NCBI RefSeq assembly: GCF_014279775.1
Contig: NZ_CP047961.1
Span: 1,674,001-1,738,000, forward strand
DNA: 64,000 nucleotides
Direction: 5' to 3'
Source of the DNA: Synechococcus sp. PROS-9-1
Lineage (GTDB): Bacteria; Cyanobacteriota; Cyanobacteriia; PCC-6307; Cyanobiaceae
Part shown: piece after piece, positions 16,752 through 42,459 of the stretch
How the letters are laid out: each line of letters opens with the position of its first letter
Numbering within the stretch: position 1 is the first letter of the stretch
The notes under the pieces: model-generated
What the model was told of the DNA's origin: nothing
The model's database searches: none
Seen by the model: only the letters and a program-made list of their open reading frames with translations
Program-made: the position numbers and the translations under genes

Positions 16752-16797
16752 GTTGGGGAAGTCAAGAGGGGAGTTTGCAAGCCTGCACTGCAAGACG

Positions 16798-16840
16798 TTC
16801 CGTTCCATTCCATTCCATTCCATTCCATTCCATTCCATTC
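16798..16840. repeat. Pentanucleotide microsatellite (TTCCA)7
   Basis: Seven perfect TTCCA units run from 16803 to 16837, flanked by a degenerate TTCCG unit on the left and a partial TTC on the right. On the minus strand the unit reads TGGAA and creates an ATG in every frame across the tract. Such simple repeats are rare in picocyanobacterial chromosomes and are prone to slippage. It lies at the left edge of the accessory island, in no supported gene. Confidence 0.95.
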
Positions 16841-16869
16841 AAAGCCTGGAACAACTCAAAGAGAGATTC

Positions 16870-17109
16870 TCAACGGTGCCTGATGAGCGCATAGAGGAGA
16901 ACTTTGCGGGCATCCCCCCGCTCCTCTGAAAAACACGAACCAAGACATTTGATGAAAATGCCAGCGTTAGCAGAAAGATTGGGAATCGATCGCAGATGAC
17001 TGCAGCGTGAAGCCCAACCTTGAGTCCAATGCCCTAGATCAACAGAGCTGATTGGTATCAACAGAGTCGTTTTTTCAATCAAAACAATTTCGATGGACGC
17101 TGAGGCCAC
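16870..17109 (-). CDS. Hypothetical small protein (uncertain)
   Basis: A 79-codon frame begins with GTG (MASASIEIVLIEKTTLLIPI) and ends near the microsatellite. The first 30 residues look like an ordinary folded protein, the rest contains a KVLLYALIRHR tail; no family is recognised. There is no clear ribosome site. It may be a real island gene, a remnant or chance; its position between the terminator and the HLI-side genes is the only support. Confidence 0.3.
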   Translation of the reverse strand: MASASIEIVLIEKTTLLIPISSVDLGHWTQGWASRCSHLRSIPNLSANAGIFIKCLGSCFSEERGDARKVLLYALIRHR

Positions 17110-17136
17110 GGATAGCCGCAGGAAGCTTTAAGTTTT

Positions 17137-17334
17137 ATGAACTTCTCAGTCAAGATTCTTCAGATGTCAACCGAAATCCGCAACTGGGACCTTGTTGCCA
17201 AAGCGATGGAAACAGCTGGGTCAACTTCAAGCCAAATGTATATCCGCGCCAAAGCCCTGGCGGAAGGGAAACCTGATCCAATGCCCACAAGCTTTCCTCA
17301 AGCACCTCACAGCATCTCCGCTGTTGCTGGCTGA
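17137..17334 (+). CDS. Small hypothetical protein upstream of HLI
   Basis: The frame encodes 65 residues from ATG 17137 (an AGGAAG ribosome-site candidate lies 14 bases upstream) or 56 from ATG 17164 (MSTEIRNWDLVAKAMETAGS). The sequence has a helical, acidic first half and a Pro-rich end. It is followed after 48 bases by the HLI gene on the same strand, so the two probably form a unit. No family recognised. Confidence 0.5.
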   Translation: MNFSVKILQMSTEIRNWDLVAKAMETAGSTSSQMYIRAKALAEGKPDPMPTSFPQAPHSISAVAG

Positions 17335-17382
17335 TCAAAAGCCTCAACACACAGAACAACAAATTCTCCTTTTCATTGAACC

Positions 17383-17526
17383 ATGACCGATCAAACAACA
17401 TCCCGATTCGGCTTCGTTGACTTTGCCGAGACATGGAATGGACGCCTCGCCATGATCGGGTTTGTCATAGGCCTTGGGACAGAATTGCTCACAGGTCAAG
17501 GAATTCTGAGCCAAATAGGTTTCTAA
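17383..17526 (+). CDS. hli: High-light-inducible protein (HLI/SCP), single helix
   Basis: This 47-residue protein carries the chlorophyll-binding ELIP/CAB motif AETWNGRLAMIGF at residues 15-27, with the Glu, Asn and Arg ligands, inside one membrane helix. HLI proteins bind chlorophyll and carotenoids in thylakoids and protect photosystems and pigment synthesis under excess light. It is shorter than the 60-residue ORF limit. Its place next to the bilin lyase suggests it is a member of the colour-acclimation island rather than a general hli copy. NblS-family kinases are known regulators of hli genes. Confidence 0.92.
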   Translation: MTDQTTSRFGFVDFAETWNGRLAMIGFVIGLGTELLTGQGILSQIGF

Positions 17527-17719
17527 ATCACAATCGACATGAAGGATTATCAGAGCCTTCCTAGCCAACATTGACATAGGCCTAGATTATATCGAAGCTT
17601 ACTAAAAGAGTGCAAAATACGTGTCTACTAGAAACTAATTTCATCTTTCAAAATAGCCTCTTCGTCTTTAACGCAAGCTTACAATAACGTGATCATCTAG
17701 TATCATATTACCAACTTAG

Positions 17720-18949
17720 TCAGTGCTGATAATCAAGCTGTTGTTTTTCAATCAAACGTGCTAAAACTTGTTGGCACGTCCAGCGAAGTGGTCTCCAAAA
17801 AGCAGATTCAGAAAGTTCGTAGATTAGCTCCATTTGATCGTAGAGTTCAAGTTCAAGACAAGCCCAAGCTGCAGCTATTCTCGACTTTGTATATTGAGGA
17901 GTGGTTTCTGAAAGAGCAGCTCGCACCAAATCACTTTTTTGGTGAAATTTACGCAAACCAATAATGCATGTAAGGTAATAGTGTGTGACGTAATCAGACC
18001 AAAGTCTTTCTTGCATACTATCAACAATTTCAAGACAACTCTTAGAATCGATAGTCATTAGGCTTAATGCCGCCCCATATTGACGCGCTTCGTCCCTATG
18101 ACTCAGATTCCTCTCTATTTCGGCAGCGTCCATATCACAATGCCATTCAGCTTTGAAATTTAGATATTGAGGATTGTCAGTCAAAAGTTGCTCTAAAAGC
18201 GAGTGATTCTTTGAAGTGGAAATTGAGTTATTAACATCAACGATATCAAAGAAACTTTTTGCCCTTAGGGACATAGAGACTGGTGCACGCACCAAATCTG
18301 GAAGTCTGCATTCATCACCAGCATCACCTAAGTCAATCACAGCCGAACGTCTTTTGCCGGCCACCAAATCGGTAAGTTGTGGAACTAGTGGATCTAAAAG
18401 ATCAACTCTACCGTATATCCTTGCCTGATATGCACGTGCTGCACCAGAAACCAAGACACTCTCATGAGAACAAAGCTCATAGATAACGGATTGCGATTTT
18501 GGGTTCCTAATTTTCAGCCTGGTATGAGCTTGAACAACTGCACGCATCTGCGTAACCTCACCATTCAAAAGTGCTAAGAGTAGATCAATATCAATAGGGA
18601 GTGGCTCCCAACCAATCCGGATCAAGGAGGTAATTGCATTAATAACAGCCTCGCTGTCAGTACATTTCAAAACACCAACTAAAGTTGGTATTGCTCGCAC
18701 ATCTTTTCTCCTTCCTAGTGCTTCAATAGATTTTCGACGCGTTATCCTGTCATACAATTCATCAATAGAAAGCTTCTCAACAGCATGCAGAAGCAACTCA
18801 AATGATTCCTCAGTGGCACTCAAGCCAAGCCTGGTGGCTGCAAAATAACGATCTGCAGGTCTTTGAACATTTAAGGTGTTCTCTAACAAGAGCTTTAACG
18901 CATCACTTTCACTCATCCCTTGGACAAGAACATCAAATCTTTCAGCCAT
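17720..18949 (-). CDS. mpeZ: E/F-type phycobilin lyase, MpeZ-like (lyase-isomerase)
   Basis: The 409-residue protein consists of HEAT-like helical repeats and has the phycobilin lyase landmark YDRITRRKSIEALGRRKD near residues 66-83, followed by IPTLVGVLK repeats. E/F lyases attach bilins to phycobiliprotein cysteines. In type IV chromatic acclimation, MpeZ attaches phycoerythrobilin to the MpeA subunit of phycoerythrin II and isomerises it to phycourobilin; MpeW is the alternative in the other island type. Length, the N-terminus MAERFDVLVQGMSESDAL and the adjacent AraC pair favour MpeZ. Whether it is MpeZ, MpeW or MpeY cannot be settled without alignment. Base composition is AT-richer than the core genes. 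No strong ribosome site precedes the ATG. Confidence 0.75.
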   Translation of the reverse strand: MAERFDVLVQGMSESDALKLLLENTLNVQRPADRYFAATRLGLSATEESFELLLHAVEKLSIDELYDRITRRKSIEALGRRKDVRAIPTLVGVLKCTDSEAVINAITSLIRIGWEPLPIDIDLLLALLNGEVTQMRAVVQAHTRLKIRNPKSQSVIYELCSHESVLVSGAARAYQARIYGRVDLLDPLVPQLTDLVAGKRRSAVIDLGDAGDECRLPDLVRAPVSMSLRAKSFFDIVDVNNSISTSKNHSLLEQLLTDNPQYLNFKAEWHCDMDAAEIERNLSHRDEARQYGAALSLMTIDSKSCLEIVDSMQERLWSDYVTHYYLTCIIGLRKFHQKSDLVRAALSETTPQYTKSRIAAAWACLELELYDQMELIYELSESAFWRPLRWTCQQVLARLIEKQQLDYQH

Positions 18950-19246
18950 AAGGATAAGATGAATAAAAAATTCTACTCAAGCAATCAATTGCAAACGTAA
19001 AAAATACATTTCATAAGGATTATATTGGCAATTTTTATTTACATAAGCTCAGAATGCACATTACGGAAACGCAGTGTTTCGGTTTTCATAGTTCAACAAA
19101 GCGTGCCGAGTGTGTTGAGCAAAAGCCCCCAAGAGGAGTGGCAAACAGCCTTAGCTAACTAGCTATTAAAAGAGATCAGGACAAATCAATTATGAAAAAT
19201 TGGCGAAAAAGATGAAGTTATCAACTTTCTTCAAAAGTCTAATAAT
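18950..19246. other. Intergenic region upstream of the lyase
   Basis: These 297 bases hold no supported gene and probably contain the lyase promoter. They are AT-rich. Two palindromic TAGCTA hexamers separated by AC occur at 19152-19165, and a short GAAAC/GTTTC inverted repeat near 19077-19091. No clear terminator was seen. Confidence 0.5.
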
Positions 19247-19414
19247 TTATTTGGATCGCTTATCAATCAATTCAATCAAATGAGCATCATGCTTATCGCA
19301 AAATTCAGAAACACACTGCCTAAGGATATGCCCTATAGATAAAGACTCTGTATAGCAAAGAAGCTTGAGCTTTTTATGTAGCTCATCATTCAACTCAAAA
19401 GTAATTCGCTTCAT
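19247..19414 (-). CDS. Small ribbon-helix-helix (CopG/Arc-like) protein
   Basis: A 55-residue frame begins MKRITFELNDELHKKLKLLC and continues YTESLSIGHILRQCVSEFCD. The pattern, a short beta strand (RITFEL) then an amphipathic helix, a turn and a second helix starting SIGHILRQCV, is that of ribbon-helix-helix DNA-binding proteins. Such proteins bind operators as dimers, or act as antitoxins; no toxin partner is visible. It stands alone between the lyase and the AraC-type regulator pair, on the same strand. The start has no strong ribosome site. It is too short for a 60-residue cutoff and may be missing from annotations. Confidence 0.7.
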   Translation of the reverse strand: MKRITFELNDELHKKLKLLCYTESLSIGHILRQCVSEFCDKHDAHLIELIDKRSK

Positions 19415-19612: not shown

Positions 19613-20569
19613 TCACAAAAGGGTGGCGCGTTTAAGCGTTTGACTTGGCAACTCTCCAAAACTAGTAAAATATCTTCTCGAAAATCTACCTTGATGCTTA
19701 AAGCCAAAACGAATCGCTATTTCCCGAATAGTATTATTATCACAAGTTGAGGTCGTAGTGTGATAAATCATCGACCTTCTAGCCTCCTCAAGCCTTACCT
19801 GTGTCATCATCTCAATAATTCCCATGCCAAAGGTATCTTGGCATGCCCTATATAAAGAAGCTTGGCCTACATTCAAGTGCTGGCAAACTTCTGACAAAGA
19901 CATTGGAGAACTCATCTTATAAGGATCATGAGAAAGATCAACAATCTCACCAAGCAAACGCTGATTCTTTGCCTGTTTCTTTTTAAACAATCTACGACTT
20001 CCTTCTTCGAGACATATAGTCATCAAATCATAGTATTTAGAAGGATTTGAAATTTCTTTAGCAAGGTCCCTTCGAGTAAGTCTACGCAATTGGGAGAATG
20101 CTTCATGATCGATCGCTAAGCCCATAGCATGATTTAAATTCTCAATGGCATGACTTGCTTTACATTCTTGAAGTTTATCAAGCAATATTTTCTTGTCTAA
20201 CATGCATGCCGTAGAGGAACATGACTCAGAATATTTCCCCCATGAATCACCTGGTTTTGAATTAAAAGTATTAAAACCTCCAAGGCTATTATCGTTCATA
20301 CTAAAACCTTCGCAGTAACCAAAAGGATAATTTGCCTTCCTCATTGGTGTTATCCAATTAAAATCAACAGACCAACTTGTGCCCCATCCCTCATATAAAA
20401 GGGGTTTTGATGCACTGATCTCGGCTATAGCCATAGAAGAAGAATTTTTATGCGCCATAGAATAACTACCTTCACCACTTTCAAGCTGAGTAATTCTTGT
20501 AACTTGACCATATTCCTGAAGAGTCTCAGATAATTGCAATGGATCTGTATAGGCGAATTTGATTTTCAT
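19613..20569 (-). CDS. fciB: AraC-type transcription regulator, FciB-like
   Basis: The 318-residue protein ends in an AraC/XylS helix-turn-helix domain: MSLSEVCQHLNVGQASLYRA is the first HTH and IREIAIRFGFKHQGRFSRRY the second, both well conserved. The N-terminal part, about 200 residues, has no recognised ligand domain. Its ATG overlaps the stop of the upstream regulator by 4 bases. Tandem regulators FciA and FciB control type IV chromatic acclimation in marine Synechococcus; assigning B to the downstream gene is from order only and could be swapped. Confidence 0.75.
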   Translation of the reverse strand: MKIKFAYTDPLQLSETLQEYGQVTRITQLESGEGSYSMAHKNSSSMAIAEISASKPLLYEGWGTSWSVDFNWITPMRKANYPFGYCEGFSMNDNSLGGFNTFNSKPGDSWGKYSESCSSTACMLDKKILLDKLQECKASHAIENLNHAMGLAIDHEAFSQLRRLTRRDLAKEISNPSKYYDLMTICLEEGSRRLFKKKQAKNQRLLGEIVDLSHDPYKMSSPMSLSEVCQHLNVGQASLYRACQDTFGMGIIEMMTQVRLEEARRSMIYHTTTSTCDNNTIREIAIRFGFKHQGRFSRRYFTSFGELPSQTLKRATLL

Positions 20570-21600
20570 GACATACTTCCTCTACGCAAGTCAGAAACAA
20601 GAACACTCATCTTGCTTGCTTTATCAATTGTGTCTTCAGGACTCTCTAGGAAAGTCCTAAAATAAAGACGTTGAAAAGAATCCCAATTTTTGAAGCCATA
20701 ATATAAAGCATTATGCTGTTTGGTAAATTGCTTTAAGCCACGGGGAACGTGTGGATTTAGATAGGACTTCTTGACTTGTTCTAGACGTATACTTTTAATC
20801 AGATCAAGAATATTCATATTAAAGGTCGATCTACATGCTTGACCTACAGATTCCTGCTCAGAATTCAAGTATTTGGTAATTTCTCCAATCGTCAAGGGTG
20901 GCAAGCCTGGTCTATCTTCATGCAATAATTTAACAAGGTCCTCTATCAGTTCAGTCGAATCAGATCTCTCGGTGATCTGATTCTGTTGCTCACAAGAATC
21001 CTCCAAAGTCGCAATGGCTAAATCATAAAATCCACTAGCTGTGGTGATTCCCTTCGTAAAATGCTTTTCGAATAAATTCTTAAGCTGATAACTAGCAGTA
21101 CTCTTTGAATCGATACCGATACATTCTTCAATCCTCGCATATGCATTATAAGCATTCATCTCATCAATTTTTTCTTTCAATATTTTCCACTTCAGACTCA
21201 TGCAACAGAGGAGGGTATTGGCCCCGACAATATCCCATGTGTTACCTCCGGTTTTATTTAAGCGATTAAATCCAGCAATGCTCAAATCCTTCATCTTATG
21301 ACCACTAATAATGGTATTACTGCTGGGCTTTATGCCTTGATTATTTATCCAACAAAATGCAATGGAATTTTGATTAGCTTCTTCTTCATAAAGCAATGTT
21401 TGATTTGACTTGAAAATTTCAAGGTGAACATTATTGATCGGAGCGCAGATCGAACTTGTTTGCAATTCACCTTTGCTTAGCTGGGTGATATTGCAAGAAA
21501 AATTTGAAGTGGAGTAATATTCATTATAATGATTCTTGCAATATGTTTCCATTCCAAGCAAGTTGCTGAAAACATATTCTTTTGCCTTCCTTGCCTTCAT
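20566..21600 (-). CDS. fciA: AraC-type transcription regulator, FciA-like
   Basis: The 344-residue protein resembles its downstream partner in layout: an unassigned N-terminal region with several cysteines (including LLCCMSLKW), then an AraC-type C-terminal domain. The first HTH (LTIGEITKYLNSEQESVGQA) is recognisable but the second (YYGFKNWDSFQRLYFRTF) is diverged. It is the first gene of the pair and is divergent from the Nif11-domain gene. FciA/FciB-like proteins respond to blue or green light and set expression of the lyase; the A/B assignment is tentative. Confidence 0.75.
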   Translation of the reverse strand: MKARKAKEYVFSNLLGMETYCKNHYNEYYSTSNFSCNITQLSKGELQTSSICAPINNVHLEIFKSNQTLLYEEEANQNSIAFCWINNQGIKPSSNTIISGHKMKDLSIAGFNRLNKTGGNTWDIVGANTLLCCMSLKWKILKEKIDEMNAYNAYARIEECIGIDSKSTASYQLKNLFEKHFTKGITTASGFYDLAIATLEDSCEQQNQITERSDSTELIEDLVKLLHEDRPGLPPLTIGEITKYLNSEQESVGQACRSTFNMNILDLIKSIRLEQVKKSYLNPHVPRGLKQFTKQHNALYYGFKNWDSFQRLYFRTFLESPEDTIDKASKMSVLVSDLRRGSMS

Positions 21601-21923
21601 CTGATTGCTACCTTGGTGTGCTGTCTCTAAAAATCAAGCAGGTGTAAACTATAATCTCTATTCGTTTCTCGCTGAGATATTGTGAGGATCTATGACATTT
21701 AAAATTTAACGCTCTGATCTTAGGCATCGACAATGCTAAGGCAATCAAGTATAGTGTGATAATTATTTACACAATGACGCCGAAAGGTCTCTTGCAGAAT
21801 TCATAGAACCGAAAAGTCGTATTCCCGATATCTGCATTGTACTTAATATTATACGCAGTGAATACAATTTCGTCTCAATTTTGAGTTAATACAGTGTATA
21901 TATCGAGTAGAGATGATTATGCC
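21601..21923. promoter_or_regulatory. Divergent promoter region of the regulator pair and Nif11 gene
   Basis: This AT-rich gap separates two divergent start codons and must carry promoters for both. A TATAAT hexamer lies at 21650-21655, and GTGTAAA (21642-21648) recurs inverted as TTTACAC (21766-21772), a possible pair of binding sites. No experimentally known operator can be named. Confidence 0.4.
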
Positions 21924-22247
21924 ATGTCTAAGTCTCAATTACATGCATTTATTGATCGAGCACGTAGTGACGAACAATTTCGTTCTCGGCTCTCATCAAT
22001 GAATCCAAAACAGATCATAGAGTTTGCAGCAGAGAGTGGATTTCAGTTTTCAGATGAAATCAAAGGGAGATTTATCAATCGATGGAAAGGAGTTTATTTT
22101 TGCCCTCAGGCTATTGAGGTTGGAATCCTATGTCCAGGATTAGTGCCACCTGGCTATAAAAATCTTCTTCACTATTCTCAATCTACGTGCAGTTCTTCAA
22201 ACCTTAAGGAAGAAGAGCATGATTTCAGGGCCGGCGGTGTTTATTAG
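21924..22247 (+). CDS. Nif11-domain protein
   Basis: The 107-residue protein starts MSKSQLHAFIDRARSDEQFR, the typical Nif11-like domain beginning; a GTG at 21894 would add ten residues. The domain covers about residues 1-50. The remainder (for example WKGVYFCPQAIEVGILCPGL) has four cysteines and ends RAGGVY. Nif11 domains occur as leaders of some peptide natural products and also in unrelated small proteins; the Gly-Gly is only two residues from the end, so a secreted peptide is unlikely. Proteins of this type are reported in colour-acclimation islands, but the function is unknown. Confidence 0.75.
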   Translation: MSKSQLHAFIDRARSDEQFRSRLSSMNPKQIIEFAAESGFQFSDEIKGRFINRWKGVYFCPQAIEVGILCPGLVPPGYKNLLHYSQSTCSSSNLKEEEHDFRAGGVY

Positions 22248-26264: not shown

Positions 26265-27404
26265 ATGCAAAGAGGGGAAATAAGCAACACAGGGAGGCTG
26301 TACTTTTTAGATCAAATCAAAGCCGTAATGATCGCCATGGTCATTGCAACTCATACGATATTAGTGGGCACACTTTTCACAACTGACATCAAGAACACGA
26401 TTGAATTAGCACCTACTTATGAAGCAGTAAGTTTTTGGTTTGGCTGGATCTGCAATACATTTTATATGAATATCCTATTCCTAATCTCAGGCTACCTCGT
26501 ACCGAATTCAGTGCACAAAAGAGGAATTAAACATTACGTCAAACACCGTTTACTACGCCTTGGAATTCCTCTAATAATTGCAATTTTACTACTTAACAAT
26601 ATAACACCATTAGCAGGCCTACTCATTCCAGGTAGTACTGTATTTGGGCAGGGAATAAACAAGCTTCCACTCAATAGGATTGGCCCACAATGGTTCCTTT
26701 TAGTACTCATCTTATTCAATGCAATATACTGCTGCTGGGCTTTTGCCAGAAAAAGCACATTTCTAGTTGACAATACAAAACCTGTACCCGGCTGGCGATC
26801 CTGGCTGATCAGCGCTGCAACTCTTGGAGCACTGGAGCTAGCAATGGGTCATTTTTCTGGCTTTTGGACTGACTTAAAAGACTCCAATTTCGATGGACTT
26901 GGCTATCAGGGAATGCACCTCTGGACGTATGGCTTCTTGTTCTTTGTTGGTTGCAAGGCAGCATCACACCATTGGTTAGAACGTATTAACAAGCGCCTGG
27001 CATTGCGGTGGCTATATCTATCTCTGGTGGCTACACTTGCACTAATGACAGCAAACTATGCACCATTCATACTATCCCATAGCAAGGAATCCTTGGAGCT
27101 TATTACACCATTAATGGCATTTTCAACTCCATTCATCGGCTGGGGTTTTATCGCTGCAATTTTATCTTTGAGCCAAGCAAATGAACAGCTGGACAGCCAT
27201 TGGCTAGCAAAAGCAGGCAAGGACAGTTTTGGCGCCTATTTGATTCACATACCGGTCCTTGCTGGGGCCATGCTCAGCTGTTATTCATTAGGAATAAAGA
27301 ACATCTGGATACTTGGATTTGGGGCAACAGCGATAGCCATCTTCTTATCATTTTTAGCGAGCCACCAACTGCGTCGAATTCCTATGATTAGAAATATTAT
27401 TTAA
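26265..27404 (+). CDS. Acyltransferase 3-family membrane protein
   Basis: The 379-residue protein has about ten hydrophobic spans. Its start (YFLDQIKAVMIAMVIATHT) carries the expected Arg/His-region of acyltransferase-3 proteins, with a His in the first membrane helix and an ISGYLVP segment followed by an RLLRLGIPL helix. Members O-acylate sugars of lipopolysaccharide or exopolysaccharide. It is isolated, clearly AT-rich compared with the core genes, and probably acquired. The start is ATG; upstream 240 bases hold no gene. Confidence 0.85.
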   Translation: MQRGEISNTGRLYFLDQIKAVMIAMVIATHTILVGTLFTTDIKNTIELAPTYEAVSFWFGWICNTFYMNILFLISGYLVPNSVHKRGIKHYVKHRLLRLGIPLIIAILLLNNITPLAGLLIPGSTVFGQGINKLPLNRIGPQWFLLVLILFNAIYCCWAFARKSTFLVDNTKPVPGWRSWLISAATLGALELAMGHFSGFWTDLKDSNFDGLGYQGMHLWTYGFLFFVGCKAASHHWLERINKRLALRWLYLSLVATLALMTANYAPFILSHSKESLELITPLMAFSTPFIGWGFIAAILSLSQANEQLDSHWLAKAGKDSFGAYLIHIPVLAGAMLSCYSLGIKNIWILGFGATAIAIFLSFLASHQLRRIPMIRNII

Positions 27405-27530
27405 CCACTCATCGTTCATGAGTAAAGCCATTAGCCACAAGCGCAGCAACAACACCATTTGTCGTATCACAGGCTACGTGACTTCTCGGAAAGCCATGCA
27501 AAATGGATAGGCCTTCATTGATCAGCATTA

Positions 27531-27803
27531 ATGACCTTTTTGATGCATTGGACGTTCAAAACTGGTTATCACGCAATTGCGGCTAAAAAGTTTTTATCAA
27601 CAGGTGCACCATTTCCGGAATGCAAATCATGGAAACGGTTTCACGGCCCTGGCTCGGTAGAAGGCTGGATTTTGGTTGAAGCAGATAATGCTGATGCCTG
27701 CTACGAGCACGCTGCTGAATGGGCTGAGTATTTGGATTGGGAGGTAACCCCTGTTCTTGCTGACGATCAGGCAGGTCCCTTCATGGCCAAGGTTTACAGC
27801 TGA
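27531..27803 (+). CDS. DUF3303-family protein
   Basis: The 90-residue protein (86 from ATG 27543, MHWTFKTGYHAIAAKKFLST) matches the DUF3303 pattern: TGAPFPECKSWKRFHGPGS, GWILVEADNADACYEHAAEW and EVTPVLADDQAGPF. These are small dimeric ferredoxin-like-fold proteins of unknown function common in cyanobacteria. It ends just before an inverted repeat that can serve as terminator. Confidence 0.85.
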   Translation: MTFLMHWTFKTGYHAIAAKKFLSTGAPFPECKSWKRFHGPGSVEGWILVEADNADACYEHAAEWAEYLDWEVTPVLADDQAGPFMAKVYS

Positions 27804-27814
27804 TCTCAGCCCTC

Positions 27815-27865
27815 AGGAAGGAACTCCCGCTAAAAGCTGAGTTTTTGCTGTGGGGGTTCCTTCCT
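27815..27865 (+). terminator. Inverted repeat, probable terminator of the DUF3303 gene
   Basis: GGAAGGAACTCCC (27816-27828) pairs with GGGGGTTCCTTCC (27852-27864), a 13-bp stem with one non-pairing position and a 23-base loop. There is only a weak T tract afterwards. It lies 12 bases after the stop codon. Confidence 0.6.
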
Positions 27866-27947
27866 TCAAAAGCACCACCTCTACATATTATTTGATTCGC
27901 AATAAGATTTGCATTAGCATAAGAAAATGTAGCGACAAGATTAAGCA

Positions 27948-28448
27948 ATGAACCTAACCTCAGCGGCAAAAACATTGCAGGATAGTCGGATCAAACAAAC
28001 ATTTATCCCTGTATCTATAGTTCTTACGCTATCACTATTGTGGCCATTACTTGCAAAAAGCCACTACGAGCATTCCACAAGCCATGGAGTCAAGATTGAG
28101 GAGTTAGCAAACTCCAGCAAAATGTGGGATGGCAGTAAGTTGCCGAATTATCCCGATGGGCCGCCAAAGATCAAAGTCCTTAGGATCCAAGTAGCAAGCG
28201 GAGTGACCTTACCTTGGCACTACCATCCTGTGATCAATGCAGCAGTGATTTTACAAGGAACATTAGAACTGCAATTAAAAGATGGAAGCCATAAGATTTA
28301 CCGAAAAGGCGATGCTTTGATTGAAGTCGTCAATACGATTCATACCGGTAAAGCATTAGGGCCTATCGACGTGGATCTGATTGTGTTCTATGCGGGAGAG
28401 GAAGCAATACCCACAACAGTTCTAGCTGAACACCAGATCAATCGATAG
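27948..28448 (+). CDS. Cupin-domain protein with N-terminal anchor
   Basis: The 166-residue protein has an N-terminal hydrophobic stretch (FIPVSIVLTLSLLWPLLA, about residues 19-37), then a cupin barrel: GVTLPWHYHPVINAAVILQG provides the two-His metal motif, and RKGDALIEVVNTIHTGKALG the second motif with a His. It is likely anchored on the periplasmic or lumenal side. The catalytic role is not predictable. It is an isolated AT-rich gene. Confidence 0.8.
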   Translation: MNLTSAAKTLQDSRIKQTFIPVSIVLTLSLLWPLLAKSHYEHSTSHGVKIEELANSSKMWDGSKLPNYPDGPPKIKVLRIQVASGVTLPWHYHPVINAAVILQGTLELQLKDGSHKIYRKGDALIEVVNTIHTGKALGPIDVDLIVFYAGEEAIPTTVLAEHQINR

Positions 28449-28457
28449 CAATACTGG

Positions 28458-28625
28458 TCAGCAACCGTTCACAGAAATCTGGATATGTACAGATAGAAAG
28501 AACCACCCCATTAAGAATAGACAGTCCATGGAACGAGCATATGGACTGGCATCATCCTTTGTAATTTCATTGGCTTCAATTGCTGCAAGTAATCGATACG
28601 CAGCGGCCCGTTGCTTTTGATCCAC
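28458..28625 (-). CDS. Hypothetical small protein or pseudogene remnant
   Basis: A 55-residue frame starts with GTG and reads MDQKQRAAAYRLLAAIEANE then ITKDDASPYARSM, which has coding character. The remaining tail is hydrophobic (FLMGWFFLSVHIQI) and out of keeping; in the second alternative frame the downstream sequence also reads like coding (LNGVVLSICTYPDFCERLL), so a frameshift is suspected. An AGGGGG tract precedes the GTG by 9 bases. It lies in the same frame as the 58-residue ORF upstream, separated from it by one stop codon. Confidence 0.35.
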   Translation of the reverse strand: MDQKQRAAAYRLLAAIEANEITKDDASPYARSMDCLFLMGWFFLSVHIQISVNGC

Positions 28626-28631
28626 TGCCCC

Positions 28632-28808
28632 TTACCCCCTAATCATGGAGAGGGAGTGAAGCAGAGTTGGAGCTGCCATCTCAGACACAAACTTCTCGAA
28701 AGACAGCTTCGTTTGGAAATAGCTTGGTTCATATTTAAAGGGAATAGACATTAATTCAACGAGCTCTCTTCGCTCTTTCCTCATGGCAAAGACTGGAAGT
28801 ACAAGCAT
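28632..28808 (-). CDS. Small hypothetical ORF
   Basis: The 58-codon frame starts MLVLPVFAMRKERRELVELM and continues SIPFKYEPSYFQTKLSFEKF; a later ATG at 28784 gives 50 residues. The charged, aromatic-rich composition suggests a genuine protein. No ribosome site is evident and no family is recognised. The TAA stop is followed in the same frame, after six bases, by the GTG of the next ORF, so these may be two halves of one gene broken by a nonsense codon. Confidence 0.35.
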   Translation of the reverse strand: MLVLPVFAMRKERRELVELMSIPFKYEPSYFQTKLSFEKFVSEMAAPTLLHSLSMIRG

Positions 28809-28863
28809 CAAAGGTAGGTCTGAGTGATGAGATCACTATCAGCCACCAACATCCAAAAAGACT

Positions 28864-28911
28864 CCCCCAAACGGGTGATAGGAGACACCATATGCGTCAC
28901 CCATTTAGGGG
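28864..28911 (-). repeat. Inverted repeat, stem fully pairable on the minus strand
   Basis: CCCCCAAACGGGTGA (28864-28878) and TCACCCATTTAGGGG (28897-28911) are complementary at 13 of 15 positions. Both mismatches are C-A in a plus-strand RNA but become G-U wobbles in a minus-strand RNA, so the minus transcript could form a continuous 15-bp hairpin with an 18-base loop. It stands upstream of the minus-strand small ORFs and is not followed by a T tract. Confidence 0.6.
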
Positions 28912-29029
28912 AGCTATAACAATTCCTGCATCAAAAGGAACTTCCATAAAGGACATTGAAAACGGGCTATTGAAACCGCTAAACTTTCAAGGAGTTCAAG
29001 ACAAAATCATCTACAATTAAAGGGGACCC

Positions 29030-29182
29030 ATGAAAATAAGACAACTAATACCGGCCAAGCTCACTGATCTGCTCGACAAAGTCAGACGAAGGATTGCCTA
29101 CGTACCAGCGGTGAGCGATACGGTTTCAGCCATGAAAGATCTTGGCATCGACCTAAAAGAGGAGAAAAAGGGCAACAAGTAA
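29030..29182 (+). CDS. Small basic hypothetical protein
   Basis: A 50-residue frame reads MKIRQLIPAKLTDLLDKVRR and ends DLKEEKKGNK. A strong AGGGG ribosome site lies 4 bases upstream of the ATG, which is the main support. The product is helical and very basic. No family is recognised, and it is below the ORF length limit. Confidence 0.5.
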   Translation: MKIRQLIPAKLTDLLDKVRRRIAYVPAVSDTVSAMKDLGIDLKEEKKGNK

Positions 29183-29270
29183 GGCCCTTCAAGAGATCCA
29201 ACCGATCAGTACGAGGGATAACGTTTTGGCCTTTCCATCCTCATTCCTGTTGTTCAGCAGTAGATCTTTG

Positions 29271-29822
29271 CTATTCAGCCCCCCCTATTCCATGCAGTTC
29301 CTTGAGGAACCAACAGTCGCAACCACCATGACCTGTTTGACCAAGGGGGCGTTCAATCTTTAGGAATCCCCAAGCCCGATAAAGCCGTTGAGCCGCCACC
29401 ATTCCCGAAAGAGTTTCGAGATAAACCCAGCGATAGCCAAGCACACGAGCCTGTTTCAACAGGCTCCGCATAAGCCGCCAACCAATACCCTTCCCCCGCG
29501 CTGATGGAGCTAAGTACATCTTCTGCAATTCGCAAGTAGCCTCCACACCTCTTAAGGGTCCAAGTCCAGCTCCCCCAAGAATATTCCCACCCTCCACGGC
29601 CACGAGATAAATCGATCCAGACGCGGCGTAGGTCTTGCTCATGGCATCTAGCTCCGGATCTTGCCAAGCAAAACCGGGGCGATCAGCACCAAATTCCACA
29701 AGTGCCGCCCGAATCAGTCTGGACAAGTCCGTTTCATCCAAAGGGTGGAGCGGCCGAAGATTTACCTCTCGTCCTTTACTCAAAAGGATGACCGCCAAAA
29801 AAGTTAACTCCTCGAGGTTCAA
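29271..29822 (-). CDS. GNAT-family N-acetyltransferase
   Basis: The protein is up to 183 residues; the frame begins at TTG 29822, and the fold starts near residue 20 (VNLRPLHPLDETDLSRLI), so a later start is likely. The acetyl-CoA-binding motif A MYLAPSARGKGIGWRLMRSL is clear, and YLETLSGMVAAQRLYRAWGF is motif B. The substrate is unknown; the adjacent genes give no clue. Confidence 0.85.
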   Translation of the reverse strand: MNLEELTFLAVILLSKGREVNLRPLHPLDETDLSRLIRAALVEFGADRPGFAWQDPELDAMSKTYAASGSIYLVAVEGGNILGGAGLGPLRGVEATCELQKMYLAPSARGKGIGWRLMRSLLKQARVLGYRWVYLETLSGMVAAQRLYRAWGFLKIERPLGQTGHGGCDCWFLKELHGIGGAE

Positions 29823-30048
29823 TCAAGACAACCCCTGTCAACAAGCTCTGATGACAGACATCTTCACCAAACAAAGCGCGAAAGGAAATTCAATCTCAAC
29901 ATTAATCAACTAAGCTAAAGAACGCGAAAATCAATCATGTATTCCATGCATTCAGTATCTTTGGTGTGACAAGTGCTTCCAAAGCAACAACAGTAAGAAC
30001 ACTAGGCCATAAGCGCTTTCATGCTATATTTAAGAAAACATAATCTAC

Positions 30049-30225
30049 ATGCTAGATATTTTACCTGGATATTATATTATCTTCTTAGCGCTAGGACTGG
30101 CAGCGGTTCTTGTGGTCTTTTTTTATTCCTTTACGCGAAATTCCAACTACGAAGTGCAGCAGCGAGCTAAAAAGCTTCAGCAAAAGAGGCAAAAAGAGAA
30201 TCAAATCACATCAGACGATGGATGA
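30049..30225 (+). CDS. Small single-span membrane protein
   Basis: The 58-residue frame starts MLDILPGYYIIFLALGLAAV and has one membrane helix at about residues 8-27, followed by a charged, coiled-coil-like tail (YEVQQRAKKLQQKRQKEN). This N-out/basic-tail layout is typical of genuine small membrane proteins, so chance is unlikely. No family is recognised. Confidence 0.6.
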   Translation: MLDILPGYYIIFLALGLAAVLVVFFYSFTRNSNYEVQQRAKKLQQKRQKENQITSDDG

Positions 30226-30407
30226 TCTCCAAGGGATGGGTGGGCCAGAACACCTTCTTGGCGCTCAAAACGGGAGTAGCCGTTCCATCCCCGGTCTATG
30301 ACTGCCTGTGCTGGCTCCGTGGGAAGAACGCTTTCCAAGCGATGGTTTGACCTGATTCCGGACGCTAGGCAATGCCATAACAGCATTGAAGCGAGAGCAA
30401 CAATCAC
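30201..30407 (-). CDS. Hypothetical small exported protein (uncertain)
   Basis: From a GTG with an AGGA ribosome site 5 bases upstream, the 68-residue frame has a signal-like start (MIVALASMLLWHCLASG) and a tail with WNGYSRFERQEGVLAHPSLG. It overlaps the plus-strand small membrane protein by 25 bases in convergent orientation. A plus-strand frame (30298-30558) covers the same stretch and cannot be excluded. Confidence 0.35.
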   Translation of the reverse strand: MIVALASMLLWHCLASGIRSNHRLESVLPTEPAQAVIDRGWNGYSRFERQEGVLAHPSLGDHPSSDVI

Positions 30408-30715
30408 GCCATTCCTAATCTCGTCGGTTTTGCTTCTGATAGCAATGCGCCATTGCACCGATGTGCTTTTCGCTCGCCTGCGCCACAGTTTGTGTATCGA
30501 AATCGGAGGAGCCATGACGGCCGATACTCCACCTCAGCAGATCAAAGAAGCAGCCTGACCACTTGGCCCCTGCTCCAACAGTTTTTCACCCAACGGCGAG
30601 TTCCGTCCTTCGGTAGGCAATCTCTTGAACGCCACGTCGATCGACACTCCATCTGCACCGAAACAGGTGCCCTAAGGAGTTCAACCACTCACCACTTAGG
30701 AACCAGGCCCCAGGC

Positions 30716-30736
30716 GCCAAACGCCAAACGCCAAAC
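30716..30736. repeat. Heptanucleotide tandem repeat (GCCAAAC)3
   Basis: Three perfect GCCAAAC units stand in tandem, followed by a partial GC. It lies about 100 bases before an orphan terminator and is in no supported gene. Confidence 0.9.
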
Positions 30737-30840
30737 GCTTCGCACTCCTCTTTCCGTTCACTGTTGTCGTTTCGAGGTTCACGCTTCTCCGATACAGATT
30801 CACTGGATCTTGGTTAGCGATATGCATAAACGAGCGAGCT

Positions 30841-30885
30841 AGGCCGTCTCTTCCATCCGGGAGGGGCGGCCTCTCTTCTTTTACA
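30841..30885 (+). terminator. Intrinsic terminator without an assigned gene
   Basis: AGGCCG (30841-30846) pairs with CGGCCT (30867-30872), with inner TCTC/GAGG pairing possible, and is followed by a pyrimidine tract CTCTTCTTTT. No gene with good coding character ends in front of it, so it may end a small RNA. Confidence 0.55.
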
Positions 30886-31236
30886 GCTCAAATCAAAGTC
30901 ATAGACGAAGATTTGGCGTATTTTTATGATTCGCTATCAACTGCAAATCAAAACCAACAAAGGACAAGGTAGATTTTGTCAGGGATAAGCACGCAACACA
31001 CTGATCAGCAGTAGATAGATATTGACCCCCAGCCCTAGACGTGTAGACGACTAGATGGAATAGCAAAGATCAGCATAGACTCCTAAAATCACAATTCTCT
31101 CCTAAGAAGCTATCAAAGAAACGGAGAAACAATTGTAATATTTAATAGGGCGAAGCAGGATTTTTATCCTTCATTCTCATCTCACTTCCTTTCTCTTTAG
31201 GGATATGAATTATCCGGCCCTCCGCGTGCAAGGCTT

Positions 31237-31509
31237 TTACTTTCTTCCCGTCAGATCATCCCAGCTAACCGCAGTATCAACACCCTCAATACATTGATTC
31301 AATCGATGACGAGGAATCTGGTAACCATCATAAAGGGAATGCTGCTCAATGGCTTTAGAGTGGCTCAATCTGAGCCTCATTAGAGGCTCCTGTTTTGCAT
31401 CAATAGAATCAGACTTATCAGTACATTCATCGGGAGCCATAAGTTTAGACGCAAAACATAGTGTTGAGATAAATGGTGCGCGGTAATTATTTGGACGACT
31501 CAATTCCAT
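31237..31509 (-). CDS. Hypothetical protein
   Basis: The 90-residue protein starts at the ATG at 31509 (MELSRPNNYRAPFISTLCFA) and ends with DTAVSWDDLTGRK. It overlaps the end of the preceding gene by 23 bases, which suggests translational coupling. A weakly hydrophobic N-terminus could be a signal sequence. No family is recognised. Confidence 0.5.
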   Translation of the reverse strand: MELSRPNNYRAPFISTLCFASKLMAPDECTDKSDSIDAKQEPLMRLRLSHSKAIEQHSLYDGYQIPRHRLNQCIEGVDTAVSWDDLTGRK

Positions 31510-31783
31510 CGTGATAGTCATCTAATAGCAATGAAACTCCATTAAAGTAAGCGCACAATTCGCCACGCAGCTGTGCGTAATAGCTCAAAGCTTCCTTGCT
31601 ATAGGCATGGCCCATTTCCTTCAAAAGATTGTCAGTAAGCCTATCCAATGCCTGGTGGGCGACAACCAGATCCACATGGATCAGATCCCTCCTTTCATTC
31701 GAAGTGATTGGGTCATTACTGCCAGAAGCACAGCGCGGATTAGCCTCTATCAATTGCTGTCGAAATGCTTCAATTTCGCTCAT
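31487..31783 (-). CDS. Hypothetical protein
   Basis: From the ATG at 31783 the protein has 98 residues, beginning MSEIEAFRQQLIEANPRCAS. The content is predominantly helical and acidic (VAHQALDRLTDNLLKEMGHA), with coding-type codon use. The frame extends upstream to 31873 without obvious sense. It is the middle member of a three-gene minus-strand string. No family is recognised. Confidence 0.55.
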   Translation of the reverse strand: MSEIEAFRQQLIEANPRCASGSNDPITSNERRDLIHVDLVVAHQALDRLTDNLLKEMGHAYSKEALSYYAQLRGELCAYFNGVSLLLDDYHDGIESSK

Positions 31784-31803
31784 CGGATCATGAACCCGTT
31801 GCT

Positions 31804-32013
31804 CTAGAAAAATATGATATCCGTTTCTATCATCCTGGTTAATCCAGATACATGACAACGTGTTAGAGAACACGCATCATGAAATACCTTGAAGTCTGCA
31901 GCTGCAGCAGTGGCTGGCCATGCCTTATGTAGCAAATCAACCAACTCTGCAGCGGGCTCATCGACCGAACTCTTGATAAGGAAAGCCAAAGGAGTCAAGC
32001 ACATTATTTTCAT
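31804..32013 (-). CDS. Hypothetical small protein
   Basis: The 69-residue frame starts with ATG (MKIMCLTPLAFLIKSSVDEP) and ends ETDIIFF. It precedes the 98-residue gene by 20 bases on the same strand. A second ATG four codons in is equally usable. No ribosome site or family is evident. Confidence 0.35.
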   Translation of the reverse strand: MKIMCLTPLAFLIKSSVDEPAAELVDLLHKAWPATAAAADFKVFHDACSLTRCHVSGLTRMIETDIIFF

Positions 32014-32260
32014 CTAAATCCATTGGCATGACAAGGATTACCACTTTATTCAGCAATGACAAGATCTCTCTTGAAGGCAGGTCTCGCTTTTCAAGTGAGG
32101 GGAATAAGTTCCACTCCACTACACAAATCAATTTCCAAAGAGCAGCACACATTTGCATCAATGGCTACAAAATCTCTGAAGGTCAAAATACTCATTGCAG
32201 GCATTTAGCATCAGATTTAACAAGAAAAGATTGTCCAGGTAACAATCAATACGCCCCCTT

Positions 32261-32404
32261 ATGACGACCGCGATTCATGGTGAATGGACAACAGGCTTAA
32301 CCTCTATGGAATTATTCGTTGGCATCTGCATCATCCCATTTCTGAGCGCTCTATTTATTCAAGCCGGCCAAGATGAACACTCTGAAGACCATGATTTCCT
32401 TTGA
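32261..32404 (+). CDS. Small membrane protein
   Basis: The 47-residue frame starts MTTAIHGEWTTGLTSMELFV and has one hydrophobic helix (about residues 17-35, ELFVGICIIPFLSALFIQ), then an acidic tail GQDEHSEDHDFL. The amphiphilic layout resembles genuine cyanobacterial small membrane proteins. There is no clear ribosome site. It is below the ORF length limit. Confidence 0.5.
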   Translation: MTTAIHGEWTTGLTSMELFVGICIIPFLSALFIQAGQDEHSEDHDFL

Positions 32405-39559: not shown

Positions 39560-40072
39560 ATGGCCTCTTTTTTCTCCACATTGCGTCGATCCTTGAATCG
39601 ACTGCTGATCGCACTGCCGGTGCTGCTTGGACTATTGATCAGTGCCCCCGCCCAGGCCGCCCAGTGGGATGCCGAGACCCTCACGGTGCCAGCTGACGGC
39701 GATGGCGCCCTGGTCACCTTCAGTGAGCAGGAAATCAAGACAGGACGGAAGGTGTTCAACGTCAGCTGCGGCACCTGCCACGCCGGCGGTATCACCAAAA
39801 CCAACCAGAATGTAGGCCTAGATACTGAAACGCTTGCGCTGGCCACTCCAGTCCGTGACAACGTTGCGGCTCTCGTGGATTACATCCAAGACCCCACGTC
39901 CTATGACGGGGAGTACAGCATTGCCGATCTGCATCCCAGCATGCGCAGTCGAGATCTTTACCCCGCCATGCGCGATCTCACCGATGAAGATCTTCGCCTG
40001 ATGTCTGGGTACATCCTGGTAGCTCCCAAAGTCTTGGGTGTCGAATGGGGCGGCGGAAAAATTTACTTCTAA
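39560..40072 (+). CDS. psbV: Cytochrome c550, PSII extrinsic protein PsbV
   Basis: PsbV stabilises the oxygen-evolving cluster on the lumenal side of photosystem II. The precursor has 170 residues with a signal peptide (cut after SAPAQA, residue 33). The heme motif CGTCH is at residues 70-74, and the second axial ligand is His125 in ADLHPSMRS, that is His41 and His92 of the 137-residue mature protein, exactly as in the family. The ATG at 39560 gives a normal signal peptide; the frame to 39524 is an overextension. A strong terminator follows. Confidence 0.97.
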   Translation: MASFFSTLRRSLNRLLIALPVLLGLLISAPAQAAQWDAETLTVPADGDGALVTFSEQEIKTGRKVFNVSCGTCHAGGITKTNQNVGLDTETLALATPVRDNVAALVDYIQDPTSYDGEYSIADLHPSMRSRDLYPAMRDLTDEDLRLMSGYILVAPKVLGVEWGGGKIYF

Positions 40073-40376
40073 TCCTTTGATTAGATAATTCCGCCACAAA
40101 AAGTGTGAATAAAGGGCCTCAAGCAATCTTGGGGCCCTTTATTTATGCATAGAAGACGCATAAAAAGCCAGCGATAAAGCATGTCCAGAGATTCAGGCTG
40201 AATCCCTCAAGACGAGATCCAGCAAAGGCCAAAACAACAAGGCAACAAACGTCTATTAACTTAATTTAAATAAAATGTTGGCACCTTGCGAAACAAAAAA
40301 TTTCAACCAGACCACGTAATATTTTCAACCAATTCAAGATATATTCTACGTAAAGAAATCTGGAGTCTCTTCAACA
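40073..40376. other. psbV-to-linker intergenic region
   Basis: Apart from the psbV terminator this 304-base gap contains no supported gene. The last 120 bases are AT-rich and probably contain the linker promoter; no motif can be named. Confidence 0.5.
40108..40143 (+). terminator. Intrinsic terminator after psbV
   Basis: AAAGGGCCTCAAG (40111-40123) pairs with CTTGGGGCCCTTT (40128-40140) with one mismatch around a 4-base loop, extended by AAT/ATT. It lies about 40 bases after the psbV stop. The A/T tracts on both sides make it potentially bidirectional. Confidence 0.85.
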
Positions 40377-41282
40377 ATGCTCTCCTCAACATCAGTCATC
40401 ACAAGCTTTGGCGGTGAACGCGAAGCTACGCCCTCTATCTCATATAAGAGTGCACAGAATAAATCTTCCCAGTCCGCGGCACTACGCAATAGCGAATTCA
40501 AGCGAAGACAGTGCGAGGGAATGAAACTCGCCATAGGCCCTCGCCTTCACAATCAATGCGGGAGCAAAGTCACTTTCGAGGACTATCCGGACCTGTCTGC
40601 AGAGGCACTAGAGAAGGCTCTAAGCGCTGCCTACCAACATGTCTATGGCAATGCACATGTCATGGACAATGAGAGATCCGCTTCTCTTGAAGCACAATTA
40701 AGAGATGGGCGCATTTCGATTCAAGATTTTGTACGGGGGCTCGCTAAATCTGACTTCTACAAGAAAAACTTCTACGACAAATGTTCTCCAGAAAGAACAA
40801 TTGAGCTCGATTTCAAACATATTTTAGGGAGGACACCTCATGATCAAAGCGAGATCAGCAAATACATTGAAATCCAAGCGTTAAAAGGGCATCATGCTGT
40901 GATTGATGCAATGGTGGACTCAGCCGAATATTCAGAAACATTCGGACGATATACAGTTCCTTATATGAGGTCTTGGCTTTCACAAGCAGGATCAGCTCAA
41001 TCAGCATTCAATAGAACGGCTGCGGTTTGCCTTGGATATGCATATAGCGACAAAGCTATCGGAATCAACTCAAGGCTTAGTCAAGGCTTAAAAACAGGGC
41101 AAGCAGACAGCATTGTCTTCCCACATGCATCAAAACTGAATTTCTCTGGACCAAACCTGATTCTTAAGAGAGGAAAGCCAGCAGCATGGGTCACAAAATC
41201 AGCAACTGTTCTAACAATCGCCGGAACAATCGAAGTAACCCGAATCATTCTCACGATTGCCTTTAGCGCCTTCGCTTCTTGA
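40377..41282 (+). CDS. Phycobilisome rod-linker protein with hydrophobic C-terminus
   Basis: This 301-residue protein has the linker domain of phycobilisome rod linkers from about residue 45 to 190: FEDYPDLSAEALEKALSAAY, the VRGLAKSDFYKKNFYDKCSP block and ELDFKHILGRTPHDQSEISK. In place of a CpcD-like C-terminal domain, it ends in a hydrophobic helix (VLTIAGTIEVTRIILTIAFS). CpcG2/CpcL-type linkers have the same feature and tether rods to photosystem I or the NDH complex; this one has a longer Ser-rich N-terminus. It is away from any phycobilisome gene cluster. An alternative is a linker for a phycoerythrin rod. Confidence 0.8.
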   Translation: MLSSTSVITSFGGEREATPSISYKSAQNKSSQSAALRNSEFKRRQCEGMKLAIGPRLHNQCGSKVTFEDYPDLSAEALEKALSAAYQHVYGNAHVMDNERSASLEAQLRDGRISIQDFVRGLAKSDFYKKNFYDKCSPERTIELDFKHILGRTPHDQSEISKYIEIQALKGHHAVIDAMVDSAEYSETFGRYTVPYMRSWLSQAGSAQSAFNRTAAVCLGYAYSDKAIGINSRLSQGLKTGQADSIVFPHASKLNFSGPNLILKRGKPAAWVTKSATVLTIAGTIEVTRIILTIAFSAFAS

Positions 41283-41492
41283 CGAAGAGATTGAGGCGAA
41301 TGCATCCTGACCATAAAAATGCAGGATACGTTTGTCTCCAGACAAGATCATCTCTCGACCAAAAGATCGGAGAGTTGTGAAATCCTTGGACCTAATTGCG
41401 TAATATTATTCTTTTCATTGCATAGTGCTCAGCTCCACTTGATTCGTCTATAGGAACTGAGCCGCAATCATGCTCTTCTAATCTTTAAATTC

Positions 41493-41786
41493 ATGACAAA
41501 AGGCTATTGGGTTGTGACTGGCAATATTCACACCCCCCTAGGGATGGTTCCTTATATCAAAAAATTCACCGCTTGGCTTCCAACAGTCGGCGCGCGTTTA
41601 CTAATACGTGACCTTCAGGCTGATGTAAGGGAAGGCACTCCTGGCTCAGTCAATATCATTGTTGAATTTGATTCAAAAGAGAAAGCAGTCACTGCGTATG
41701 AATCAACAGAATACCAAGAATTAATTAATCTCAGGCTTCAGCATTCAGATCTCAGCCTCACCATCACAGAAAAATTGTTAGACTAA
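41493..41786 (+). CDS. DUF1330-family protein
   Basis: The 97-residue protein has the conserved start (KGYWVVTGNIHTPLGMVPYI), a central GARLLIRDLQADV strand and the VIIEFDSKEKAVTAYESTEY segment of DUF1330 ferredoxin-like dimers. Function is unknown. It is preceded by an AT-rich intergenic region and stands as a single gene. Confidence 0.85.
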   Translation: MTKGYWVVTGNIHTPLGMVPYIKKFTAWLPTVGARLLIRDLQADVREGTPGSVNIIVEFDSKEKAVTAYESTEYQELINLRLQHSDLSLTITEKLLD

Positions 41787-42039
41787 CATCCCAATAAGTC
41801 AACACTCTGCTGACAAATCCTGCCTCTTTGCATTGACTTCAAAGCGAGATGTTGTTTTTTCACAATGGCCATAGGCGCAGCATTAGAGCAGTAAGTTCTA
41901 TGCCACAGAGAAAATATTAGCTCAACTGATCAGTGAAAAGCCTGAAGATTCAAGACACTTTTGAAGAACAATAAGGATCAAGCCCATCTCTCCTCACAAC
42001 AACTAATCCGAAGAATGCAGTCTGCCTAGCAAAGTGCTT

Positions 42040-42459
42040 TCAATGTTGCTCTTCAGCAAATGACTGCGAAGGAGTGTGATTCAAAGCGAGCATTGATTTT
42101 GGTAGCCGGCTGTACCACCATTCCTGCAACTCAGGCGTCAAACGCATCGAAAAGAGCGTTAGGAGAGTAGCTGTAGGGCGAGAGCCCGGCTGGAGCAACT
42201 CAACCGAATATGAGGGGCAGCGCCTGGAAGCAAGATCTGGCACAAATCGGCGCCCCACCCGGCGCCAACTTGGCTCCTTGCTGCGCCAAGCCAAGCGACA
42301 ACAGGGCCAGGGGAGCTCCTCCCGATCAAACAAACGACAACAGGGTCCAATCACCCGAAAGCTGTACTGCCCCCCTGGACTGGCATGCACCGATCCATGC
42401 TCTAGCAGTGCCTGAACATCCGAACGCAATGCAGAAACAGGTGTCACGGGAATGACCAA
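42040..42459 (-). CDS. Conserved picocyanobacterial hypothetical protein
   Basis: The frame encodes up to 139 residues with a TTG start; a GTG four codons later is an alternative. It is rich in Arg, Pro and Trp, with several Cys pairs (CCRLFDREELPWPCCRLAW) and a C-terminal block RLTPELQEWWYSRLPKSMLA that looks conserved. No metal or catalytic motif can be asserted. It is downstream of petF on the same strand, behind the petF terminator. Confidence 0.6.
   Translation of the reverse strand: MVIPVTPVSALRSDVQALLEHGSVHASPGGQYSFRVIGPCCRLFDREELPWPCCRLAWRSKEPSWRRVGRRFVPDLASRRCPSYSVELLQPGSRPTATLLTLFSMRLTPELQEWWYSRLPKSMLALNHTPSQSFAEEQH

Follow-up and report, generated by a model that had tools for sequence, protein, structure and literature searches.

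We found that a phycobilisome linker gene at 40377..41282 (+ strand) of the window encodes a 301-amino-acid protein that combines two kinds of linker. Its body is that of phycoerythrin-II (PEII) linkers and its hydrophobic C-terminal tail is homologous to the tail of CpcGII, so we describe it as a PEII-type rod linker with a CpcL-type tail. (The window is the whole stretch of 64,000 nucleotides that we analysed, G000:C1:1674001-1738000, from a one-contig genome of 2.27 Mb.) By its ORF, its Pfam match, and its orthologue alignment, the gene is mpeF. We propose, with moderate confidence, that MpeF attaches PEII rods to the thylakoid membrane separately from ordinary phycobilisomes, with photosystem I as the probable site. 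This turns a membrane-anchored PEII antenna into a concrete hypothesis.

The mpeF gene has been known and named since 2007, and the passages on linkers in that paper (PMC2246261) mention neither the tail nor its relation to CpcGII. The pattern of mpeF with mpeZ that we describe below is our addition. In the literature that we covered, which was mostly open access, we found no published link of MpeF or MpeG to CpcL, and one may be in print elsewhere.

Identity of the linker

The sequence-only reading of this DNA had described a CpcL-like linker with a normal rod-linker domain and a membrane-like helix in place of the CpcD domain. The rod-linker domain is indeed ordinary: PF00427 covers residues 74-198 (40596..40970, + strand; Pfam E = 1.7e-45), an AF2 model from 22 rows is confident across it (pLDDT mostly 70-94), and a Foldseek search with the model retrieves PF00427 structures, including chains of the CpcL-PBS entry 8hfq. 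(An AF2 model from 8 sequences had a mean pLDDT of 36 and was discarded.) The replacement of the CpcD domain also held up: Pfam lists no CpcD domain in MpeF at E up to 1, and the C-terminus is hydrophobic.

The likeness to CpcL stands for the tail and not for the body. The nearest relatives of MpeF outside its own group are the N-termini of MpeD (42-50% identity), with MpeG close behind. Across six genomes, MpeF scores 210-237 bits against MpeD N-termini versus 54-63 bits against CpcGII frames. In a tree of 88 linker rows with the tails removed, all MpeF sequences fall in one clade among the PEII linkers (98/94), MpeG forms a separate clade (100/98), and MpeC, MpeD, and MpeE form one clade each. 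On these comparisons, the body of MpeF is a PEII linker of the MpeC/MpeD/MpeE kind and not of the CpcG/CpcL type. A quick tree places MpeG beside MpeD, and a single group of MpeF and MpeG is neither shown nor rejected (p-AU = 0.156). Given that MpeF and MpeG show no clear grouping, PEII linkers may have acquired the CpcL-type tail on two occasions.

Full-length orthologues of MpeF are present at 87% identity in the genome that we take to be CC9311, at 57% in that of CC9902, and at 58% in that of BL107; the three genomes are among our set as G213, G089, and G242. Six et al. 2007 (PMC2246261) gave the name mpeF to an extra PEII linker gene in BL107, CC9311, and CC9902 and called a further such group, from RS9916 and RCC307, mpeG; neither lies in the phycobilisome region. 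(In one place, the paper's linker section terms the RS9916 gene mpeF.) Our ORF agrees with the MpeF of that paper in its PEII-linker body and in its position outside the rod cluster.

Upstream of the linker domain, the segment C46...GPR...C61 (40512..40559, + strand) aligns with the bilin-binding segment of PEII linkers. Its putative role is taken from PMC2246261, where a PUB is described as linked by two cysteines in the corresponding part of MpeD. We aligned the protein with 11 further full-length MpeF and 5 shorter proteins, which we call the X form (L017 and L033-L036). The pattern C-x(5-8)-G(P/A)R-x(3-4)-C is present in 12/12 MpeF, 9/10 MpeG (both cysteines are lost in the MpeG of G273), and 0/5 X-form proteins. 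The X form has lost the bilin segment and kept the linker domain and the tail, so these two can persist without it.

The hydrophobic tail

The C-terminal 35 residues of MpeF (residues 267-301; 41175..41279, + strand) are hydrophobic, with a best 19-residue Kyte-Doolittle mean of 1.77. These maxima are 1.59-2.16 for MpeF (n = 12, with this protein included), 1.89-2.02 for the X form (n = 5), 1.25-1.74 for MpeG (n = 10), and 1.55-2.28 for CpcGII (n = 30). They are 0.81-1.27 for MpeD, 0.33-0.96 for CpeC, and 0.60-1.22 for CpeE (14 of each), and 0.72-1.75 for MpeC/E (n = 19, one of which is within the MpeF range). On the octanol scale, the tail of CpcGII is the more hydrophobic of the two (mean of -5.6 kcal/mol, versus -1.7 for MpeF), and the MpeF helix contains one Glu and one Arg. 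The AF2 model from 22 rows shows residues 270-300 as one helix at low confidence (pLDDT about 48-62).

The gene for CpcGII is in the rod cluster, outside the window (L070, G000:C1:493876-494631), and the protein has a hydrophobic CpcL-type tail in all 30 genomes that we aligned. The tails of MpeF and CpcGII from the same genome are identical at 14 of 34 positions without a gap, and the alignment scores 72, versus 19.2 ± 3.9 for shuffled tails (z = 13.6; none of 5,000 shuffles scored as high). Comparison of tail profiles links both MpeF (97.3%, P = 7e-11) and MpeG (95.4%, P = 6e-9) to CpcGII, and gives only 26% (P = 1e-4) for MpeF with MpeG. The Glu and Arg of the tail helix form an E-x-x-R pair (E286 and R289 in MpeF) that is common to 17/17 MpeF and X-form proteins and 30/30 CpcGII and is found in 0/10 MpeG.

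We also built an HMM from the 30 CpcGII tails alone and compared it to the linkers of 14 genomes, the MpeF/X/MpeG set, the ORFs of the window, and distant cpcG loci. It found CpcGII in 14/14 cases (11 of these are training rows) and all 27 of the MpeF, X-form, and MpeG proteins (E = 5.6e-10 to 5.6e-6). Beyond these, it found a single distant CpcL-like protein (L141, E = 3e-4), and all of the next matches were at E ≥ 0.5. None of MpeC/D/E, CpeC/E, or CpcGI were found in the same set: the profile skips the soluble linkers, and the C-terminus of MpeF did not align with a soluble domain. These results show homology between the tails of MpeF and CpcGII, beyond mere hydrophobicity. (The bare tails had no match in PDB.) By this homology, insertion of MpeF into the membrane by its tail is likely, if not certain.

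CpcGIII (L155 and L156, from genomes that we take to be CC9311 and CC9902) also ends in a hydrophobic stretch. The HMM missed other hydrophobic-tailed homologues of cpcG, including cpcGIII of CC9311 (E = 2.7), and the tail of Anabaena CpcL, which was found in photosystem I bands (PMC11165356), differs in sequence from that of MpeF. The homology is therefore with CpcGII, and what connects MpeF to proven CpcL is a common architecture. The link between CpcGII and proven CpcL is likewise one of architecture, and the body of CpcGII is a better PDB match to CpcG than to CpcL.

Genomic setting of mpeF

The gene had been placed outside the phycobilisome region, and the complete genome bears this out, with mpeF at 1,714 kb and the linker genes of the rod cluster at 483-496 kb. 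The source genome has 13 matches to PF00427, and these include a soluble-tailed cpcG at 1,939 kb and a 1258-amino-acid frame with four matches at 1,757-1,760 kb, which by its size is presumably apcE.

Within the window, mpeF lies in a 2.0 kb islet of low GC content (40073..42090; 43%, versus 58% in the flanks) along with a downstream gene of the DUF1330 family (41493..41786, + strand). A gene of this family adjoins mpeF or mpeG in just 9 of 25 genomes and does so in differing contexts, and we did not count DUF1330 as part of the MpeF system. Upstream of mpeF, a block that aligns in seven genomes (40283..40300, + strand) is a possible control element; with up to 3 mismatches allowed, the window has no other match to it (0.28 expected by chance). 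The block was not found upstream of the genome's own mpeZ, and a search of three of the four mpeZ upstream regions (all except L137) found no control motif common to mpeF and mpeZ. Scanning viral contigs with a sequence pattern did not turn up mpeF.

Purifying selection acts on mpeF: across six pairs, dN/dS is 0.10-0.16 for the whole gene (0.13-0.59 for the short tail alone).

Elsewhere in the window, 26265-32264 has lower GC content and few genes, including an acyltransferase (PF01757) and a DUF3303 gene, and may be a small variable region.

Co-occurrence of mpeF with mpeZ

From its gene content, we infer that the CA4-A island lies at 17.7-21.6 kb of the same window. The sequence-only reading had drawn no connection between this island and mpeF. 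It contains a bilin lyase with HEAT repeats (17720..18949, - strand), which is of the mpeZ type judging by gene content, and a pair of AraC-type regulators, which by gene order would be fciB (19613..20569, - strand) and fciA (20566..21600, - strand; its HTH is below the Pfam cut-off). The AraC pair and the HEAT lyase fit the CA4-A gene content given in Humily et al. 2013 (PMC3877281). A small Nif11-domain protein (21894-22247) adjoins the fci genes.

We compared the presence of mpeF and mpeZ across 60 genomes, 50 of which were chosen for matching MpeF or its kin and 10 of which were added. Either mpeF or the X form is present in 15 genomes, and mpeZ is present in all 15 of these (at least 62% identity); fciA of CA4-A is present in 12 of them (it is absent from G271, G289, and G295). 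Altogether, 19 genomes have mpeZ, and of the four mpeZ genomes without mpeF, three have MpeG (G253, G024, and G097) and G267 has neither. MpeG shows no such link to mpeZ (3/10). Among 31 genomes of the genus, 16 have mpeF, 17 have mpeZ, and 15 have both; the exceptions are G422 with mpeF only (80% complete), G416 with mpeZ only (70% complete), and G253 with mpeZ and MpeG. The two genes are 19-23 kb apart in four genomes (G000, G213, G075, and G283), 131 kb apart in G101, and 0.29-1.08 Mb apart in five other MpeF genomes with both genes on one contig, so the match cannot be put down to simple linkage in every genome.

Fisher's exact test for mpeF and mpeZ gives 7e-11 over the 60 genomes, which we do not take at face value because 50 of these genomes were chosen for MpeF matches and because kinship leaves few independent pairs. 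On a serA tree of 28 of 30 genomes (without G123 and G131), mpeF needs 5 changes and there are only 4 independent pairs on well-supported branches. In about 2 of these 4 pairs, mpeZ changes in the same way as mpeF, and in none does it change in the opposite way. We consider the link suggestive and not established, and relatedness may explain the pattern.

Two close relatives, G231 and G034 (98-99% identity in serA), lack both genes. The counterparts of window positions 40072 and 42091 are only 117 and 133 bp apart in G231 and G034, so that mpeF and the DUF1330 gene are absent, and neither genome matches window 16752-19247, within which mpeZ lies, at the island site. G231 keeps the fci genes, with one stop in fciA, and G034 keeps pieces of them. 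The features of G231 fit the description of WH8016, which is without mpeZ and has a stop in fciA (PMC3877281). The mpeF site is also empty in G239 (WH7803) and G204. The more distant G295 carries mpeF at the same place, so loss in G231 and G034 is the simpler reading. In a tree of the three genes beside the site, G231 and G034 fall inside the mpeF-bearing genomes, although this is not strong (84/94); a single clade of the seven mpeF genomes was not rejected (p-AU = 0.094, with one AG-686-F08 gene partial), and the serA tree leaves the fork of G231 and G034 open. Overall, we favor the loss of mpeF in these two genomes.

Proposed role and alternatives

We propose that the PF00427 domain of MpeF would sit in the cavity of a phycoerythrin-II hexamer, that the two-cysteine segment could carry a bilin as in MpeC, MpeD, and MpeE, and that the C-terminal helix, as the same CpcL-type tail that CpcGII has, would fix the hexamer to the thylakoid membrane. 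In strains with CA4-A blue/green acclimation, this would yield a membrane-bound PEII rod that has no core and that, like CpcL rods, most likely passes its energy to photosystem I. Any light regulation of MpeF would be a further prediction. It is solely the resemblance to CpcL that would point to photosystem I or NDH as the partner. CpcL rods go to photosystem I in Synechocystis (PMC10322944) and Anabaena (PMC11165356), and the hydrophobic C-terminus of CpcL ties a core-less rod to photosystem I (PMC6479007, PMC9415938), with the tail itself unresolved in the cryo-EM structure (PMC10322944).

Published mass spectrometry is consistent with a membrane tail. In phycobilisome preparations, CpcGII and the MpeF/MpeG products of RS9916 and RCC307 were undetected, and the other PEII linkers were detected (PMC2246261). 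According to the paper's table, these two strains carry MpeG, so the non-detection concerns MpeG and not MpeF itself. The authors' reasons were either no expression or the proteins' biochemical properties. A shared membrane tail would explain why both CpcGII and the MpeF/MpeG products were absent from phycobilisomes.

Several points weaken the model. PEII emission overlaps poorly with chlorophyll a, and direct transfer from PEII to chlorophyll is spectrally poor. The tail has a low octanol score, its helix contains Glu and Arg, and the AF2 helix is of low confidence. The body of CpcGII is CpcG-like, its link to CpcL is by architecture, and it was once seen in a phycobilisome fraction, from WH8102 (PMC2246261); the undetected products may simply not have been expressed. 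The mpeZ pattern has exceptions, and four independent pairs are too few. A broader proposal, that CA4-A strains build a second, core-less, blue-light PEII antenna that is anchored by MpeF and drives photosystem I, is tentative, and we lean slightly against it. If it is true, then blue/green acclimation also redistributes energy between the photosystems, beyond swapping bilins.

Another reading, which we consider rather unlikely, is that MpeF is anchored in the membrane but docks PEII on NDH-1, on photosystem II, or on no complex, for instance at a site of assembly or chromophorylation. The homology of the tail argues for the membrane without singling out a partner, the mpeZ pattern would suit a role in assembly or with the chromophore, and the X form retains the tail without the bilin segment. 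However, CpcL has been described with photosystem I (PMC10322944, PMC6479007, PMC11165356).

We think it improbable that MpeF acts, under certain conditions, as a rod linker in ordinary phycobilisomes, with its tail lodged within the rod or capping it and kept out of the membrane. The replacement of another PEII linker by MpeF or MpeG under some conditions was proposed in PMC2246261, and the weaker octanol score, the charged residues of the helix, and the one sighting of CpcGII in a phycobilisome fraction would agree with this. However, none of the soluble rod linkers in our set have the tail, and the MpeF/MpeG products went undetected where other PEII linkers were present. That mpeF is a passenger of its islet with little effect, matching mpeZ by shared ancestry alone, is very unlikely: the low-GC islet is missing as a block in some relatives and the few changes on the serA tree give no significance, but the gene is under purifying selection, occurs in several genomic contexts and in two genera, and is absent along with mpeZ from G231 and G034.

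Comparison with known systems

MpeC, MpeD, and MpeE share with MpeF the PF00427 domain, the N-terminal two-cysteine bilin segment, and PEII, but they are without such a tail. MpeG is similar to MpeF in its PEII-linker body, its two-cysteine segment, and a tail that the CpcGII-tail profile finds; it differs in having its own clade and a longer tail, in lacking the E-x-x-R pair, and in showing no tie to mpeZ. CpcL and CpcGII both have PF00427 and no CpcD domain, as MpeF does, and they end in a hydrophobic helix that is of the same kind in CpcL and the same in CpcGII. Unlike MpeF, they have a CpcG-type body and no bilin segment, and cpcGII is inside the rod cluster. Gain and loss of the tail were already suggested within the CpcG/CpcL family (PMC10053587); in MpeF, the CpcGII tail is found on a phycoerythrin linker. 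In PMC9415938, annotated cpcG genes were screened for such tails, and this screen may have passed over the mpe genes.

If our favored reading of MpeF as a membrane anchor is correct, the blue-light phycoerythrin of CA4-A strains could be wired directly to the membrane, perhaps to photosystem I. Descriptions of CA4 in marine Synechococcus speak of an exchange of the bilins on phycoerythrin. One parallel is CA1, which uses CcaS and CpcL and yields CpcL rods in green light (PMC9415938). Like CA1, the MpeF case would pair acclimation to light color with a membrane-tail linker, here through CA4-A genes and a PEII linker in place of CcaS and CpcL.
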